Of a stretch of DNA of 14,764 nucleotides, positions 3,223 to 14,764 are shown one piece after another; the first letter of the stretch is position 1, and each line of letters begins with the position of its first letter. The notes below the pieces were generated by a model. It saw only the letters and a list, made by a program, of their open reading frames with translations. It made no database searches and was not told the DNA's origin. The position numbers and the translations under genes are program-made. This DNA is from a candidate division TA06 bacterium DG_78 (GTDB lineage Bacteria; Hydrothermota; Tepidihabitantia; SM23-42): contig LJNI01000041.1 of the NCBI GenBank assembly GCA_001303225.1, positions 1-14,764 of the forward strand. The letters are read 5' to 3'.

Positions 3223-4125
3223 TCATCCGCAGATAAATCTAAAGGTTATGATTCCCCACTGTGTTTCCTGAACAACGCTTTTGGGGAGTGGTACAAATCG
3301 CCACTTCTTTAGTGCATCTACTACTGCCTGGTCAAGATCAGGATAACCAGAAGAGATTTCGACAAGGGTACCTTCACGTAGGTTACCTGACGCCTCGACC
3401 CAAATTCTAACTTTTACAACACCGGAGATACCCTTTTGCAAACACCAGGATGGGTATTTTGGCAAAACCTTATTTAAAATTTGACGGCCGGCAATTGGCC
3501 CGGCGAGCGATATCTGTGTTCCTGCTTTTTCAGATTTTAGTTTTTCCTCAATTTGCGTCTCAACTTGTTTGGTTATTTTGGTTGTTTTTGGTGGTGGTGG
3601 TTTCTTATCAATCTTAATTGTCGGAGCCTGAGCCTTATAGCCGATACCGCCCTTGCCAATGCCGACACCTCCTTCGGTCCCGGCTCCCCTGGGTAGATTC
3701 TTGACAAGTGATATCGGTTTTTCCGCAAGAATCTCCTCGGTGCTTTTTACTGTACCATCTGCTTTGCTCCCAATCTTCACAACATCCCCGTCCATATCAT
3801 TGGTGGTGAGATATCGGTCCAGATTAATTTCTGCTTGGCTTCTGTCTAATTCAACACTAAGGTCTATCGCAGGTGTGACAATATCACTTCCATATCCTGA
3901 AGATGCAGCCTCTGAATATGTTTCTTGGACGTCACTCCAGACCGAACCTTTAGATACAACCTTTGCAACCTCGGGCCTATATGATTGATCGATGAATGTT
4001 ATCTCATGAATATTTTCATAGTCAATTACACCAGCACCTTTAGACCCTGATAAGAGGAAGAATAGACCTATGTGAATAATAATCGAGGATATGATACCGA
4101 TATCAAGGCGTTTGTCTTTAAGCAT
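3223..4125 (-). CDS. TonB/TolA-type energy-transducing protein
   Basis: 300-residue protein expected to carry motion from the ExbB/ExbD motor to the outer membrane. The start is set at the ATG of 4125, giving MLKDKRLDIGIISS. It is preceded by AGGGG, and its A overlaps the stop of the ExbD-like gene upstream (TAATG). A longer frame reaching 4176 would add 17 unlikely residues. One N-terminal membrane segment (about 9-26) holds S14-x3-H18, the SxxxH motif through which TonB and TolA couple to their motors. A long linker follows, with a Gly-rich stretch (147-162) and KKPPPPK (174-180). Residues 218-296 form a TonB C-terminal domain: LPKYPSW, GVVKVRIWVEASGNLREG, ISSGYPDLDQAVVDALKKWRFVPL. No TonB-dependent receptor is nearby, so the partner is probably encoded within this operon or elsewhere. 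Confidence 0.92.
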   Translation of the reverse strand: MLKDKRLDIGIISSIIIHIGLFFLLSGSKGAGVIDYENIHEITFIDQSYRPEVAKVVSKGSVWSDVQETYSEAASSGYGSDIVTPAIDLSVELDRSQAEINLDRYLTTNDMDGDVVKIGSKADGTVKSTEEILAEKPISLVKNLPRGAGTEGGVGIGKGGIGYKAQAPTIKIDKKPPPPKTTKITKQVETQIEEKLKSEKAGTQISLAGPIAGRQILNKVLPKYPSWCLQKGISGVVKVRIWVEASGNLREGTLVEISSGYPDLDQAVVDALKKWRFVPLPKSVVQETQWGIITFRFICG

Positions 4126-4517
4126 TATTCCCCTTTTATTTTTTTTGTGGCGCAGGCAATACGCTTTGCCCCACAACTTTTCACCTTAGCCAGAATTTCC
4201 ATGACATCAACATGTAGGACATCTTTATCTGCCCTAATCACGACGAGTTGAAATGAATCTTTTTCAAGTTCATATAAGATTGTTTCGGTAAGTTGTTCGA
4301 GAGCTATCTCCTTGTCGTTGACAAAGAGGGAACCACCTGCATTGAATGTGATGGTTAGGTTTTCCTCAGTCTTTGTCTCGGCAGTATGGGCGCGAGGTAC
4401 CTCGACTGGTGTCTGGGTATGGGTCATGACCATTGGTGCGATTACCATCATCGCTAATACTAATATTAAACCGACACACGCCATTGGCAGAATATCAATG
4501 TTCGACATTCGCCTCAT
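4125..4517 (-). CDS. Second ExbD/TolR-like protein, membrane Asp replaced by Cys
   Basis: 130 residues: one N-terminal membrane helix (about 10-33) and a periplasmic ExbD-type domain (LTITFNAGGSLFVNDKEIALEQLTETI, then VVIRADKDV). In ExbD and TolR the helix begins P-x-x-D, and that Asp is the essential proton-carrying residue. Here the segment is P11-M-A-C14 followed by VGLILVLAMMVIAP. The 14-residue distance from this position to the conserved AP matches E. coli ExbD exactly, so C14 stands in place of the Asp. It starts inside the stop of the preceding ExbD gene (ATGA overlap of 4 nt), with GAGGGAG as ribosome site. It probably pairs with that Asp-bearing ExbD as an asymmetric dimer (inference). 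Confidence 0.9.
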   Translation of the reverse strand: MRRMSNIDILPMACVGLILVLAMMVIAPMVMTHTQTPVEVPRAHTAETKTEENLTITFNAGGSLFVNDKEIALEQLTETILYELEKDSFQLVVIRADKDVLHVDVMEILAKVKSCGAKRIACATKKIKGE

Positions 4518-4924
4518 CGTTTCTCCCTCAGTAGAGCGAGTTCACCGGCTCCATGTTGTTTTGCCAAATCTAGAATCTGAATAACCCTCTCATATCGTAC
4601 TTCCGCGTCGGTTGAGACGATCACTTTTCTGCCGAGACTGCGGGCAAGGAGTTCGGGTAAGAGTTCTGTCAGTTGTTCATAGGTGACAGTTTCTTCGTTG
4701 AGGAGTATTGTACCATCATCGCGCAGATGGATATTTACTTTTATTTCACTCACCTCACTCGCTTCTGCTTTTGCAACACCAGGTGCGTTAACAAATATTC
4801 CTGATTCGAAAAAAAGTGGGATTGCAACAATGAAACCGATAACTAAGGCTAATGCTATATCAACAAGCGAATTGAGTATCAGTCCTTCAGGTTGTATGCT
4901 AAATTTAATACGCCGTCTTTTCAT
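4514..4924 (-). CDS. ExbD/TolR-like proton-channel subunit
   Basis: 136 residues from the ATG at 4924 (MKRRRIKFSIQPEG), one base after the stop of the ExbB gene. The open frame continues to 5014, but those extra residues are the ExbB C-terminus read in another frame. After a basic N-terminus, the single membrane helix begins SLVD22IALALVIGFIVAIP, with D22 in the position of the essential Asp of E. coli ExbD (D25). The periplasmic part is IKVNIHLRDDGTILLNEETVTYEQL, then KVIVSTDAEVRYERVIQILDLAKQHGAGELAL, the standard ExbD/TolR fold. With the ExbB above it, this is the proton-conducting unit of the motor. No strong ribosome site is seen, so translation is probably coupled to ExbB. Confidence 0.93.
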   Translation of the reverse strand: MKRRRIKFSIQPEGLILNSLVDIALALVIGFIVAIPLFFESGIFVNAPGVAKAEASEVSEIKVNIHLRDDGTILLNEETVTYEQLTELLPELLARSLGRKVIVSTDAEVRYERVIQILDLAKQHGAGELALLREKR

Positions 4925-4925
4925 C

Positions 4926-5627
4926 TTAGAATTTCCAGGTTGTGTCCTCGGGCGGTGTGTACTTTGGTTTAGGAGCCGGATCAGTAACTGGCGATTGTTC
5001 TGATTTTTTATCAAGATTATTGAGAAATACGATAAGGCGGTCGCTTACGCCATCGAGTCCCATTGCGAGTTCATTACTTTTTTTGGTAAAGTAGTTGTAA
5101 AAGAAGAGGGTCGGGATGCCAATAAATAAACCGAATGCCGTGGTTAAGAGTGCCTCGGCAATACCGCTTGAGATAACAGCTGGTCCACCTGATCCAGTAA
5201 TTGCAATATTGTGAAATGCCCTAATTAAACCCATTACAGTTCCTAATAGACCAAGAAGTGTTGCGGCATTAGCAAGAGTTCCCATGCCGCCCAGATACCG
5301 GTCAAACTTCACTTTCTCTTCTATAATGTAACTCGATAGAATTTCAAACAGATGATCAGTATCGAGATGACGATTCTGTAATGCAATCATAAACACACCA
5401 TTGAGAGGGTTCTTTTTTTGATGTGTGTAGGCGAGTGCGGCATTTGGGCCTTCTGTTCTGAGAACATGACTGAATTTCAAGTAACCGGCACGAGTGTCGA
5501 AACCGTGTCTAGTAAAGTACATAAACCGCTCTATGATTAACGCCAGGGCAACTATTGAGCAGACCAGAAGTATGGCCATCACCAAACTTCCTTTAAAAAT
5601 TTCAATGATAGGTTGTCCTAATATCAT
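4926..5627 (-). CDS. ExbB/TolQ/MotA-family motor protein
   Basis: 233-residue inner-membrane protein that forms the proton-driven ring around ExbD. Membrane segments lie at about 12-34, 115-140 and 150-176. The family signature GLLGTVMGLIRAF (126-138) and SSGIAEALLTTAFGLFIGIP (153-172) carry T130, E158 and T163. These correspond at a constant offset of 18 to T148, E176 and T181 of E. coli ExbB, so the proton pathway looks intact. The C-terminus ends in a Pro/Lys-rich tail (about 207-233) of unknown role. A near-perfect ribosome site, AAGGAGGATAA, sits before the ATG. The gene follows a 218-nt spacer and begins a tightly packed block, ExbB-ExbD-ExbD'-TonB, with overlaps or gaps of 1-4 nt. TolQ and ExbB cannot be told apart here. 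Confidence 0.95.
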   Translation of the reverse strand: MILGQPIIEIFKGSLVMAILLVCSIVALALIIERFMYFTRHGFDTRAGYLKFSHVLRTEGPNAALAYTHQKKNPLNGVFMIALQNRHLDTDHLFEILSSYIIEEKVKFDRYLGGMGTLANAATLLGLLGTVMGLIRAFHNIAITGSGGPAVISSGIAEALLTTAFGLFIGIPTLFFYNYFTKKSNELAMGLDGVSDRLIVFLNNLDKKSEQSPVTDPAPKPKYTPPEDTTWKF

Positions 5628-11281: not shown

Positions 11282-12385
11282 TTAAGAGATGGTATATTTT
11301 GCGATAATTTCTTTTATCTGCACTGGTGTGCTACACAATACATTAATGACCTGGGCATCACGGAAATATCGTTCGACCGGGTAATCCTTCATATAACCAT
11401 AGCCACCATAGATTTGAATCGCCGATGTTGTAATTTCAACTGCTGCAGTGCCACTAAAGTATTTTGCCATTGCTGCAGCAGTACGGAAGTCTTTTTTCGC
11501 GTCTCTCTTCATCGCTGCATCATATAGTAAGAGACGTCCTGCCTCAATTTTTGTTGACATATCGGCGATCTTTTCCCTTACCATTCCAAATTCTATAATC
11601 GGGGTATTAAATTGTATACGTTCTTTTGCATATTTTAGTGCGGCATCAGTAGCACCCTGGGAAATACCGAGTGCGATTGCAGCGAGACAGAGTTGTGCTA
11701 AGCCGAGGATTTCCTGTAAAATTGTAGCACCCTCATTCACTGTGCCGATTATATTGGTAGGTGAAAGTGTACAATTTTCAAATGCGATTTCTGCGATGCC
11801 TGATGCCTTCATACCGATAGTATTGTTTTTTTGAACTCGTTTAATGCCGGTGGTATTCTTCTCGACTAACAAGGCAGTCAAATTTTGTTTCTCTCCAGAG
11901 AATGATAAAAGGATGATAAGGGGACCGTTTGCACTGGAATTCAGGACCAGTAAATTTCTGCCGTTTAAGATATAGTCTTCACCTTCTTTTTTTATTTCTA
12001 TTTCATTTGTTGTGACGTCGGCATAGCCACCAATAATTTCTCCGGTTGCAGCTTGGGGCAAATATTTTTTCTTTATTTCATCGCTTCCAAACTTCAGGAT
12101 TGGATAGGCAAAGAGTGCATTGTGTGTAGCAGTGATGAGGGCAGTGGACGCACAGACCTTACTGATTTCCTCGAGGGTAATGACCAATCCAATAGTATCG
12201 AGGGCTGCTCCGCCCATGTCTTCAGGGATTACCGCACCCAAAAGACCCATCTCAGAGAGTTTTTTAATGTTGTCTCGAGCGAAACTGCATGTTTTATCAA
12301 GTTCGTCCACCTTATCGAGAATAACCTGTTGGGCAAATTTCTTTAATTCATTTTGCAGTAATGTGCATTCTTGATTAAGTTCCAT
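11282..12385 (-). CDS. Acyl-CoA dehydrogenase-like subunit lacking catalytic Glu (predicted non-catalytic partner)
   Basis: 367 residues with the full acyl-CoA dehydrogenase fold but missing key parts. The TExxAGSD flavin/substrate loop is deleted (about 8 residues shorter at 120-125). The catalytic Glu position in the C-terminal helix is C351 (VLCSTPVQI aligned with IYEGTNEIQ). The DxxR motif of the acyl-CoA-binding helix is also lost. It retains ERIQF (255-259) and QIYGGYGYMKDYPVERYFRDA (324-344), which in this family contact the ADP part of FAD in the neighbouring subunit. It follows the active paralogue with a one-base TAATG overlap and has its own AAAGGAG site. The paired arrangement suggests a heteromeric enzyme like the alpha2beta2 FadE complexes of Mycobacterium tuberculosis. 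The loss is not random decay, because the frame and other motifs are intact. Confidence 0.9.
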   Translation of the reverse strand: MELNQECTLLQNELKKFAQQVILDKVDELDKTCSFARDNIKKLSEMGLLGAVIPEDMGGAALDTIGLVITLEEISKVCASTALITATHNALFAYPILKFGSDEIKKKYLPQAATGEIIGGYADVTTNEIEIKKEGEDYILNGRNLLVLNSSANGPLIILLSFSGEKQNLTALLVEKNTTGIKRVQKNNTIGMKASGIAEIAFENCTLSPTNIIGTVNEGATILQEILGLAQLCLAAIALGISQGATDAALKYAKERIQFNTPIIEFGMVREKIADMSTKIEAGRLLLYDAAMKRDAKKDFRTAAAMAKYFSGTAAVEITTSAIQIYGGYGYMKDYPVERYFRDAQVINVLCSTPVQIKEIIAKYTIS

Positions 12386-13545
12386 TATTGCTCCTTTCCT
12401 TGTCTCGATTTCATTCCCATTTCCCTGATGAGTTCAAGGGCAATCACCGCGCGTTGGATCTCATTAGTACCTTCGTATATTTGAGTGATCTTGGCATCAC
12501 GTAACATCTTCTCGACATTATATTCTTTGAGAATGCCATAGGGACCCAAAAGTTCAATAGCATATGTGGTGACCCTCATTGCTACGTCAGATGGAAACAC
12601 TTTTGCAAATGATGATTCCTTTGAAAAGTTTTTTGCACCCGAATCTATCATTCGTGCTACAGCATATATTAAGGCACGTGCTGCCTCTATCTCGATTGCA
12701 AGATCAGCGATCTTTTTCTGGATACATTGATTTTCCAAAAGTTTATTTTTGTACGCAAAATCCAGTGCTGCTTCATAAGCTCCCTGGGCAATACCAAGGG
12801 CAATGGCACCCACGCCCGGTCTTGAGTGATCGAAGTTCCGCATAGTATAGAGAAACCCTCTTCCCTCTTTACCCATAAGATTTTCTTTTGGAACCCTGCA
12901 ATCCTCAAAGACAAGTTCTGTAGTGGTTGATGCCCTGATGCCTAATTTGTTTTCTTCTTTACCAAAACTGAAGCCCGGCATTCCCTTTTCTACTATAAAC
13001 GCTGAAATACCTCGGGCACCTCTTGATTTATCAGTGGATGCCAGTACTACATATACGTCAGCGATACTTCCACTGGAAATGAACTGTTTCACACCATTTA
13101 AGATATGGGAGTCGCCTTCTTTTCGTGCTGTCGTTTGGATATTCGCAACATCACTTCCTGCTTGTGCCTCAGTAAGGCCAAAGGCACAGAATAATTCACC
13201 AGTAGCGATCCTCGGTAAATATTTTTTCTTTTGGTCTTCGTCGGCAAAATAGATGATAGGTCCTGACCCCAGGGCGTTTGCTGCATAGGCGGTTGCAACG
13301 CCAGCGCAGATGCGTGCAACCTCTTCGCAAGCAATACACATATCCATCACCTTTGCACCACTACCGCCATATTCTCTTGGGACGAAGATTTTCAATAAAC
13401 CCTGTCTTCCCATCTCTTTTACTATTTCTGTTGGGAATTCTGCCTTTTCATCGAGTTTGTCCCGCACTGGCAGAACTAATTTTTCTGTAATCTGGCGCGC
13501 CTTTTCTTTCAAAGTTTTTTCTTCGTCTGTCAAAAAATAGTCCAT
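12385..13545 (-). CDS. Acyl-CoA dehydrogenase, catalytic subunit (short/butyryl-CoA dehydrogenase-like)
   Basis: 386 residues. It should introduce the alpha,beta double bond into an acyl-CoA using FAD and pass electrons to an electron-transfer flavoprotein, not encoded here. Motifs seen: FGLTEAQAGSD (122-132, flavin contact), KQFISSGSIADV (153-164), NKLGIRASTTTELVFEDCRVP (199-219), D239-x-x-R242, and the catalytic E358 in QIYEGTNEIQR. The ERxQFGxPI segment is missing: the region reads YKNKLLENQCIQKKIADL, about 5 residues short, with no Arg or Phe. QxxGGxG reads ELLGPYG. Both lost parts bind the FAD ADP moiety across the dimer in ordinary family members, and both are present in the next gene's product. 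The start has a strong AAGGGGG site. Chain-length preference cannot be read from the sequence. Confidence 0.94.
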   Translation of the reverse strand: MDYFLTDEEKTLKEKARQITEKLVLPVRDKLDEKAEFPTEIVKEMGRQGLLKIFVPREYGGSGAKVMDMCIACEEVARICAGVATAYAANALGSGPIIYFADEDQKKKYLPRIATGELFCAFGLTEAQAGSDVANIQTTARKEGDSHILNGVKQFISSGSIADVYVVLASTDKSRGARGISAFIVEKGMPGFSFGKEENKLGIRASTTTELVFEDCRVPKENLMGKEGRGFLYTMRNFDHSRPGVGAIALGIAQGAYEAALDFAYKNKLLENQCIQKKIADLAIEIEAARALIYAVARMIDSGAKNFSKESSFAKVFPSDVAMRVTTYAIELLGPYGILKEYNVEKMLRDAKITQIYEGTNEIQRAVIALELIREMGMKSRQGKEQ

Positions 13546-13661: not shown

Positions 13662-13771
13662 TCGTTATACGGCATCGTTATTCGTTTAAGAAAAATAAGC
13701 CTCACTTCGTTCGGGTATAGGATTTTCAATCCTATACCCGAAAATATTGAAACCGAACAACGATTAACGAT
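13662..13771. repeat. Heptad inverted array around a perfect hairpin
   Basis: TCGT cores at 13662, 13675 and 13682 on the left, and CCGA/ACGA cores at 13753, 13760 and 13767 on the right (exact 7-nt spacing on the right, 13 and 7 on the left). The halves are inverted and flank the 15-bp hairpin at 13710-13742. This gives the same architecture as the arrays at 421-519 and 9617-9669, but with a strong central stem. Confidence 0.55.
13710..13742. repeat. Perfect 15-bp hairpin with 3-nt loop
   Basis: TTCGGGTATAGGATT (13710-13724), loop TTC, then AATCCTATACCCGAA (13728-13742), with no mismatch. It is not followed by a T-run on either strand and stands between divergent genes, so ordinary termination is unlikely. 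On the minus strand it lies about 30 nt inside the predicted dehydrogenase leader. Confidence 0.85.
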
Positions 13772-13916: not shown

Positions 13917-14764
13917 ATGTTTTTGCCCCTTTTTTTATTGATTGCACAGCTTGAAGTTGCTGCTTTTGATACCCCAAATGATGATGGATCAAGTATTACT
14001 GTTACATGGGAGAGCGACACTAATTTTCAATCAGTTATCATTATGAGGAGTGCGCGTCCGCAAGAGGGATTCGAGACACTCTGCGAAGTTGAGATGAGTC
14101 GTTCACCATTTTTTGATACGAGCATTACCTCGGATGGTAATTACTACTATAAAATAGTGGCACAGAGTGGAGATACTGAAATAATTTCCGAAGTAGTTGG
14201 GCCGGTGAAGGTACACGCTCAGTTTTTTAATACGGGCCGTATCAACATTGCAATATGTATTGTTATTCTCTTCGCAGCAATTATTTACTATATCAGACGG
14301 GCACGTCGCGGTAAAATATTATATATAAGGAAGATACCTGCAATTACGGCAATGGAGGAGGCGATTGGTCGTGCTACTGAAATGGGCAAACCGGTGCTCT
14401 TTGTTCCAGGTATAATGGATATTGATGAGCCAGAGACAATCGCTGCGATGAGTATCTTGGGCAGGATTGCGGAGAAGACCGCGGAGTACGGTACGCCACT
14501 CTATGTTCCGACATGCCATGCAATGACCATGAGTATGGCGCAACAGATTGTAAAAGAATCGGCAACACGGGTTGGTAGACCTGATTGGTTTAATGCTGAC
14601 AACATACGATACTTAACCGAAGATCAATTTGGTTACGTGTCCGCAGTTGATGGAATTATGGTGAGGGAGAAGCCAGCAACCAATTTCTATTTGGGGAAAT
14701 TTTATGCAGAATCAGTCATTCTGGCAGAAACAGGATACTCGACAGGAGCAGTGCAAATTGCTGG
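13917..14764 (+). CDS. Membrane protein: signal, fibronectin-III-like domain, TM helix, cytoplasmic domain (3' end outside window)
   Basis: Open frame of 282 complete codons running off the right edge. It begins MFLPLFLLIAQLEVAAF, a signal-like hydrophobic start lacking basic residues. An in-frame stop at 13884-13886 leaves no other start. Residues 14-100 look like a fibronectin type III domain (SITVTWESDTNFQSVIIMRS..., FFDTSITSDGNYYYKIVA). A membrane helix spans about 108-126, followed by the basic IRRARRGK stop-transfer. The rest (about 135 on) is cytoplasmic: AITAMEEAIGRATEMGKPVLFVPGI, ETIAAMSILGRIAEKTAEYGTPLYVPTCHAM, and further conserved-looking blocks rich in small residues. I recall a similar Fn3-TM-DUF6754 arrangement in candidate-phylum genomes, but cannot confirm it here. 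No enzymatic motif is recognised. It is transcribed away from the dehydrogenase operon. Confidence 0.85.
   Translation, partial: MFLPLFLLIAQLEVAAFDTPNDDGSSITVTWESDTNFQSVIIMRSARPQEGFETLCEVEMSRSPFFDTSITSDGNYYYKIVAQSGDTEIISEVVGPVKVHAQFFNTGRINIAICIVILFAAIIYYIRRARRGKILYIRKIPAITAMEEAIGRATEMGKPVLFVPGIMDIDEPETIAAMSILGRIAEKTAEYGTPLYVPTCHAMTMSMAQQIVKESATRVGRPDWFNADNIRYLTEDQFGYVSAVDGIMVREKPATNFYLGKFYAESVILAETGYSTGAVQIA

Follow-up and report, generated by a model that had tools for sequence, protein, structure and literature searches.

Heteromeric acyl-CoA dehydrogenases (ACADs), in which a flavin adenine dinucleotide (FAD) site is split between two unlike chains, have been described from steroid catabolism, and the passages of these reports available to us call the architecture unprecedented. 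In the same passages, ChsE1-ChsE2 (FadE28-FadE29) and ChsE4-ChsE5 (FadE26-FadE27) of Mycobacterium tuberculosis and Scd1AB of Pseudomonas stutzeri are alpha2beta2 tetramers with two FAD. Here we analyze two adjacent ACAD genes, hereafter alpha and beta, in a stretch of 14,764 nucleotides (“the window”) from candidate division TA06 bacterium DG_78. The window is contig 124 of a 173-contig, 2.09 Mb genome, and the closest named relatives of this genome are candidate division WOR-3 / Candidatus Stahlbacteria assemblies. The sequences make it very probable that alpha, the catalytic chain, and beta, the chain that binds the adenosine diphosphate (ADP) moiety, are subunits of an obligately heteromeric ACAD.

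Further paired systems have been described. The IpdE1-IpdE2 heterotetramer is represented here by a title in a reference list, and a PimCD-like pair is compared, in an excerpt, with ChsE12, with a heteromer suspected for the dicarboxylic-acid enzyme. CasC of Rhodococcus jostii, as excerpted, consists of two fused ACAD domains, one with the catalytic Glu and the other needed for FAD binding. ThnO/ThnT is ruled out as a further heteromeric pair, because the accessible part of its report gives ThnO as homotetrameric. No title or start of an abstract in the searched literature, outside which most subscription journals lie, describes a heteromeric ACAD in WOR-3. One WOR-3 paper names acyl-CoA dehydrogenase, in the part available, only as a step of beta-oxidation, and the term acyl-CoA does not occur in a second.

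Division of the FAD-site motifs between two adjacent genes

The alpha and beta open reading frames overlap by one base (TAATG). Alpha scores above the cut-offs of PF02771, PF02770, and PF00441, while beta does so for PF02771 and PF00441 and reaches 32.2 against the cut-off of 33.3 for PF02770; both are members of the ACAD superfamily. The ACAD reading frames of the fetched loci were aligned to one profile, and six motif blocks were read. The genes and the motifs placed by this alignment are as follows.

12385..13545, reverse strand: alpha gene, 386 amino acids; ACAD with the catalytic Glu and the flavin-ring and substrate side, ADP-binding side lost
13150..13173, reverse strand: alpha TEAQAGSD, residues 125-132, own-side flavin motif
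12820..12831, reverse strand: alpha DHSR (DxxR), residues 239-242
12727..12747, reverse strand: alpha NKLLENQ, residues 267-273, at the five-residue deletion that removes ERxQF (reads YKNK-----L)
12535..12555, reverse strand: alpha ELLGPYG, residues 331-337, in place of QxxGGxG
12460..12477, reverse strand: alpha YEGTNE with the catalytic Glu358
11282..12385, reverse strand: beta gene, 367 amino acids; ACAD with the ADP-binding side, flavin-ring and catalytic side lost
12014..12031, reverse strand: beta GGYADV, the remnant at the deletion of TExxAGSD (eight-column gap)
11597..11623, reverse strand: beta ERIQFNTPI, residues 255-263, ADP-side motif
11396..11416, reverse strand: beta QIYGGYG, residues 324-330, ADP-side motif
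11324..11338, reverse strand: beta LCSTP with Cys351 at the position of the catalytic Glu (Cys codon 11333-11335)

In order, the six blocks read LTEAQAGSD, KQFISSG, DHSR, YKNK-----L, ELLGPYG, and YEGTNE in alpha, and a gap, NLLVLNS, GLAQ (at DxxR), KERIQFNTPI, QIYGGYG, and LCSTPV in beta. The frames and the motif table are thereby the same as in the first-pass annotation, which had been made from the letters of the window. In ACADs, some of these blocks face the flavin ring bound by their own subunit, and the others face the ADP moiety bound by the neighboring one. The available passages on the steroid heteromers agree with this assignment, as the alpha chain binds the isoalloxazine and has the Glu, while the beta chain contacts the ADP-ribose. 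Only one of the two window products keeps the catalytic Glu, and the flavin-ring side in alpha and the ADP side in beta are reciprocal. Judged from these blocks, alpha keeps the predicted contacts to the flavin ring, the substrate, and the proton, and has lost the elements that would reach the neighbor's FAD; beta is the reverse.

In a single-chain model of alpha, the predicted local distance difference test (pLDDT) is below 50 at residues 125-135, 201-206, 357-372, and 374-386, which are the FAD loops; this model was built from an alignment of 13 rows only, and no conclusion rests on it. The fold of beta alone is predicted confidently.

Conservation of the reciprocal loss

We next give the state of these motifs in the near family, namely the best 120 of 8,000 alpha matches and the best 120 of 1,584 beta matches, the latter including the window beta. 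All 120 alpha homologues have the own-side motif intact (5/5) together with the Glu and the Arg of DxxR, and all 120 carry the five-residue deletion, with 1 or 2 of the 6 partner-facing residues left. Conversely, all 120 beta homologues have 6/6 partner-facing residues, with an own-side score of 0-2 of 5. The position of the catalytic Glu is occupied in the betas by Cys (97), Gly (7), Glu (3), or another residue (13). The claim that beta lacks DxxR is right for the window beta and does not extend to the family, where the Arg column is R in 49/120. Since every listed alpha and every listed beta keeps its own half without the other, the reciprocal pattern, as far as sequences can tell, is neither chance nor decay. 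The argument that the reciprocal loss speaks against simple decay is accordingly strengthened, as no listed member of the near family departs from the pattern.

The Cys is retained in these 97 betas, even though their site is unable to bind flavin as ACADs normally do.

Linkage of alpha and beta

The first-pass annotation had proposed a survey of adjacent gene pairs in related genomes. Among the 23 full-length beta genes of the window's type (beta I, next to alpha I) in 21 genomes of the window's order, 22 have an intact alpha upstream of them on the same strand. The 23rd, a second copy in G005, adjoins a truncated alpha fragment, and this genome has an intact pair elsewhere. The distance at the alpha-beta junction, with beta starts picked automatically and limited to ATG, ranges from -11 to 506 bases over the 22 loci measured and is at most 2 in 12 of them; the 506-base gap, in G006, is real by coordinates. 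Within the order, alpha is 73-79% identical to the window alpha.

Of the order's 27 genomes, 21 carry alpha I, and these same 21 carry beta I. The remaining six (G007, G012, G013, G015, G017, and G022) have neither full gene, and five of these six assemblies are less than 90% complete. In G015, a further beta I match is a 127-residue fragment with 76% identity, counted by its match, with its motifs not read. The second gene without the first, an occurrence that had been named as evidence against a heteromer, is confined, among the full-length betas of the order, to the 23rd beta beside its truncated alpha; in other families, beta relatives that do not adjoin alpha I do exist.

A second system in the same genome

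The same genome holds a differently ordered reciprocal pair. On contig 72 (L001), the genes beta II and alpha II are followed by an ACAD (gamma) that is cut by the contig end. The order beta II-alpha II-gamma was found in 21/21 fetched loci, which were chosen for their neighboring matches; gamma is cut in L001, the beta II frame is short in L124, and G002 and G017, with alpha and gamma matches near contig ends, are not counted as trios. Homologues of EtfB and EtfA, the subunits of the electron transfer flavoprotein (ETF), follow the trio in 15/16 scanned loci, the exception being L001 with its contig end. The ETF pair was typed by Pfam in one locus and by BLAST clustering in the remaining loci. 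An Fe-S/CCG protein and a larger flavin/Fe-S protein, which we read as HdrA-like, are common at this operon. In the class-level loci L160-L167, alpha II-gamma lies beside two CoA-transferase-type genes in 7/8, with no beta.

With the reciprocal loss fixed, the genes nearly always adjacent, and a second reciprocal pair in the genome, the heteromer proposed by the first-pass annotation gains support from the sequences of many loci. The second system, the recurring alpha losses, and the intermediates described below go beyond that annotation.

Genes for a phosphate acetyl/butyryltransferase and a beta-eliminating lyase lie near beta II-alpha II-gamma in some loci (L043:1379-2293 and L112:242-1741), a hint of amino-acid fermentation. 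Two loci of the trio, L043 and L044, are on contigs labeled Armatimonadetes and Cloacimonadota and are nested in WOR-3 clades, a placement that we ascribe to transfer or misbinning.

Proposed assembly and reaction

How would the two chains form an active enzyme? The division of the FAD site is read at the sequence level; from it and from the relatives we infer the assembly, the cofactor count, the substrate, and the electron acceptor.

Assembly: Alpha and beta would replace the two like subunits of the usual ACAD dimer, and one FAD would lie across each alpha-beta interface. Two such dimers would then associate, so that the complex would have two active sites instead of four. As judged from the motifs, the enzyme is probably an alpha2beta2 assembly with one FAD per alpha-beta pair.

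Reaction: With relatives that resemble butyryl-CoA dehydrogenase, the enzyme probably acts on a short or branched acyl-CoA. Its electrons probably pass to ETF.

Relation to the described heteromers

As in the passages on ChsE and Scd1AB, there are two ACAD chains, one with the Glu and the flavin-ring side and the other with the ADP-ribose side. Moreover, Scd1A and Scd1B are described as products of adjacent genes, like the window alpha and beta, and IpdE1-IpdE2 and PimC-PimD, as far as these sources go, are also paired ACADs. In contrast to the ChsE and Scd1AB proteins, with their steroid substrates and steroid gene clusters, the WOR-3 proteins are butyryl-CoA-dehydrogenase-like, and no steroid genes were recognized among the few typed neighbors of the WOR-3 loci. 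While the CasC halves are fused in one chain, the WOR-3 halves lie on two.

The best structure match among those listed is 5ol2_C (Clostridioides difficile butyryl-CoA dehydrogenase), with 351 bits for alpha and 250 bits for beta; according to the alignments, it carries in one chain both of the halves that are split between alpha and beta. The best NCBIfam model for both proteins is that of acryloyl-CoA reductase, NF042972 (alpha 401 and beta 281 bits), and both stay far below its cut-off of 640 bits. Compared with the Bcd/acryloyl-CoA-reductase models, the scores are far lower with the IpdE2 model (25 and 68 bits, respectively; cut-off 450), the PimC model (116 and 32 bits; cut-off 624), and the PimD model (74 and 80 bits; cut-off 653). 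In the fold searches, homomeric ACADs are on top and ChsE chains are not among the matches listed, which we do not take as absence; 4x28, presumably a ChsE entry, is absent among the 60 structure matches listed for alpha and beta.

Because of these model scores and the nesting of alpha among complete WOR-3 ACADs, the lineage seems to be separate from that of the steroid enzymes, as had been suggested from the sequence of the window. The origin appears to be independent of the steroid heteromers, in trees that held no ChsE sequences. The split-FAD way of working is already known, and the WOR-3 instance is outside the characterized IpdE2, PimC, and PimD families.

Evolutionary history

The main tree was built with the motif columns removed from 99 of 142 aligned rows, and a larger quick tree of all 142 rows agrees with it. 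Rows with more than 60 gapped columns (142-row set and column analysis) or more than 80 (alpha I tree) were dropped, and near-identical rows were thinned. In the main tree, the beta rows form one clade (support 98/93), while three changes are required among the alpha rows (bootstrap range 3-3). In the trees, alpha is placed within a set of complete WOR-3 ACADs. A single origin of alpha I and alpha II is rejected by the approximately unbiased (AU) test. In-place duplication of each alpha into its own beta is likewise excluded, the alpha I+beta I and alpha II+beta II groupings being rejected by AU tests. With two other ACADs as the root, the tree of the 94 alpha I orthologues requires the full state to change twice, once on the branch that unites the window's order with G027 and once in families f32-f34, where the alphas of G135 and G136 are only partly lost. 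Counting the loss in alpha II, these trees indicate no fewer than three losses of the partner-facing half by alphas of this phylum.

A wider tree of 81 rows has a 100/100 branch that sets 26 beta-like rows apart; the next to diverge, again at 100/100 and before gamma, is the beta-like row of G072. Their own-side scores are graded: 5/5 in G072, 3-4 in G131, G132, G133, and G136, and 0-2 in G138, G139, f16, G027, beta I, and beta II, of which G027, G138, and G139, like G073-G075, score 0-1. Some internal beta branches are weak (76/95 and 81/91), and the G027 beta branch is very long (1.94). This tree is unrooted, so the direction of change depends on taking the complete form as the common state. 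Partly lost alphas are also found, namely alpha II of G072 and alpha I of G135 and G136.

From the trees, we propose that a single beta lineage, whose closest kin are the complete gamma-type ACADs in the sister operon, would have turned into a donor of the ADP side, and that separate alpha lineages able to borrow this side would then have lost their own. In the window's WOR-3 order, each alpha would have its own beta. A further, tentative proposal, to which we give somewhat less than even weight, is that a shared beta lineage supplied the ADP half-site in trans and so pushed unrelated complete ACADs to shed their own half, three times or more within one phylum. The single detected beta in G027, G131, and similar genomes may then serve two unrelated half-lost alphas, and the graded betas and part-lost alphas would be surviving stages of a ratchet that leads from homomer to obligate heteromer. 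The WOR-3 proteins offer a natural series for testing the neutral ratchet to obligate heteromers. The same division of labor in WOR-3, on butyryl-CoA-dehydrogenase-like proteins and with repeated losses and intermediates, would show that this outcome recurs in evolution and is not an adaptation to steroids. ACAD gene counts would overstate the beta-oxidation capacity of such genomes, as some annotated ACADs are probably half-enzymes.

Exceptions and alternative explanations

What weighs against an obligate alpha-beta pair? We compared 94 genomes, which are those of 129 with an alpha match whose alpha I row was fetched and passed the gap filter, including 17 of the order's 21. The list of beta-bearing genomes was entered by hand, and the absence of beta in 34 genomes was judged from scores, with motifs not read. 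Alpha I is lost or partly lost and beta is present in 23 genomes, alpha I is full without beta in 64, and alpha I is full with beta in 5 (G072-G075 and G139), where beta adjoins alpha II. No clear beta is present in the other two genomes, G134, where alpha I is lost, and G135, where it is partly lost; these assemblies are 84% and 89% complete. In addition, alpha I does not adjoin the beta in G027 and in families f32-f34; the two genes lie on separate contigs in G027, G131, G133, and G136 and about 20 kb apart in G137 and G138. Moreover, G004 carries an extra alpha I (L132) without an adjoining beta. Only two independent losses of alpha I occur among the 94 genomes, too few for a phylogenetic test of the alpha-beta association; the joint presence and absence of the two genes within the order is partly due to adjacency in fragmented assemblies. 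Finally, 11 class-level loci that were read have a half-lost alpha II beside a complete ACAD with no adjoining beta, and the ADP-side donor therefore need not be beta. As the assemblies are partly incomplete, the absences of beta are soft. G134 also contains a frame-broken ACAD (L311) that reads as being without both halves.

The complementarity is also limited in extent. We took as conserved the 75 columns that are at least 90% conserved among 101 complete ACADs, a set that omitted two transitional rows (L168 and L171); the alpha rows L147 and L150 are in neither alpha set. Of these columns, alpha I has lost 12, alpha II 11, beta I 29, and beta II 34. Six losses are common to both alphas, against 1.76 expected (p 0.0014), and all six columns are kept in 44/44 beta rows. 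The columns lost by both partners number 3 against 4.6 expected for alpha I/beta I (p 0.23) and 2 against 5.0 for alpha II/beta II (p 0.049), at most modestly below chance and not clearly fewer. Therefore, the complementarity is specific to the FAD site and is not protein-wide.

The class-level loci bring up the alternative that a complete ACAD such as gamma lends alpha its ADP side, with beta as a decaying leftover. Families f6, f7, and f9 have alpha II beside a complete gamma-type ACAD with no adjoining beta (L160-L167, L212, L216, and L325), two more loci (L312 and L313) have a half-lost alpha II beside a contig-cut ACAD, and, judged by scores, the searched genomes have no beta-like match at other loci. 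The window's order has a gamma as well, in the ETF operon; however, this gamma sits at another locus, with alpha II, while beta I adjoins alpha I and is constrained at all six partner-facing residues throughout the 120 listed homologues. Partnership with gamma is thus probably true for the class pairs and unlikely for the window pair, and as an account of the window genes we consider this alternative improbable. Still less probable is that alpha has ceased to bind FAD in the family fashion, for example by using flavin mononucleotide (FMN), which has no ADP part, as a homo-oligomer, with beta as a non-catalytic paralogue in another role. The strongest alpha losses are indeed in the elements contacting the ADP side, but this account leaves unexplained why the betas keep the ADP-side residues, why the genes stay adjacent, and why 64 of the 66 genomes in which no beta was detected have a complete alpha I.

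Simple decay, which would make alpha and beta pseudogenes or inactive paralogues of a redundant family, could draw on the truncated alpha of the extra G005 copy and on the frame-broken ACAD of G134. Yet the frames are open, the complementary patterns are fixed over two taxonomic families, alpha is well conserved within the order, and beta has a confidently predicted fold. Decay is already contradicted by the fixed pattern, and we regard it as hardly credible.

Surroundings of the locus

Unlike the trio, the window alpha I-beta I locus has no ETF genes alongside; a conserved neighbor of it is a DUF6754 gene (window 13917-14762; L153:8150-9226), which lies near alpha I-beta I in 11/15 scanned loci. 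Two further conserved genes of unassigned kind are near it in 10/15.

Upstream of alpha, positions 13712-13740 of the window form a long, near-perfect inverted repeat, and the surrounding 201 bases fold with a z of -5.6. Contig 79 holds a copy with three mismatches, and the repeat may belong to a small repeat family or be a terminator. Elsewhere in the window, at 3226-5627, lies a Tol/Ton-like cluster of MotA/ExbB, two ExbD, and a TonB C-terminal protein.
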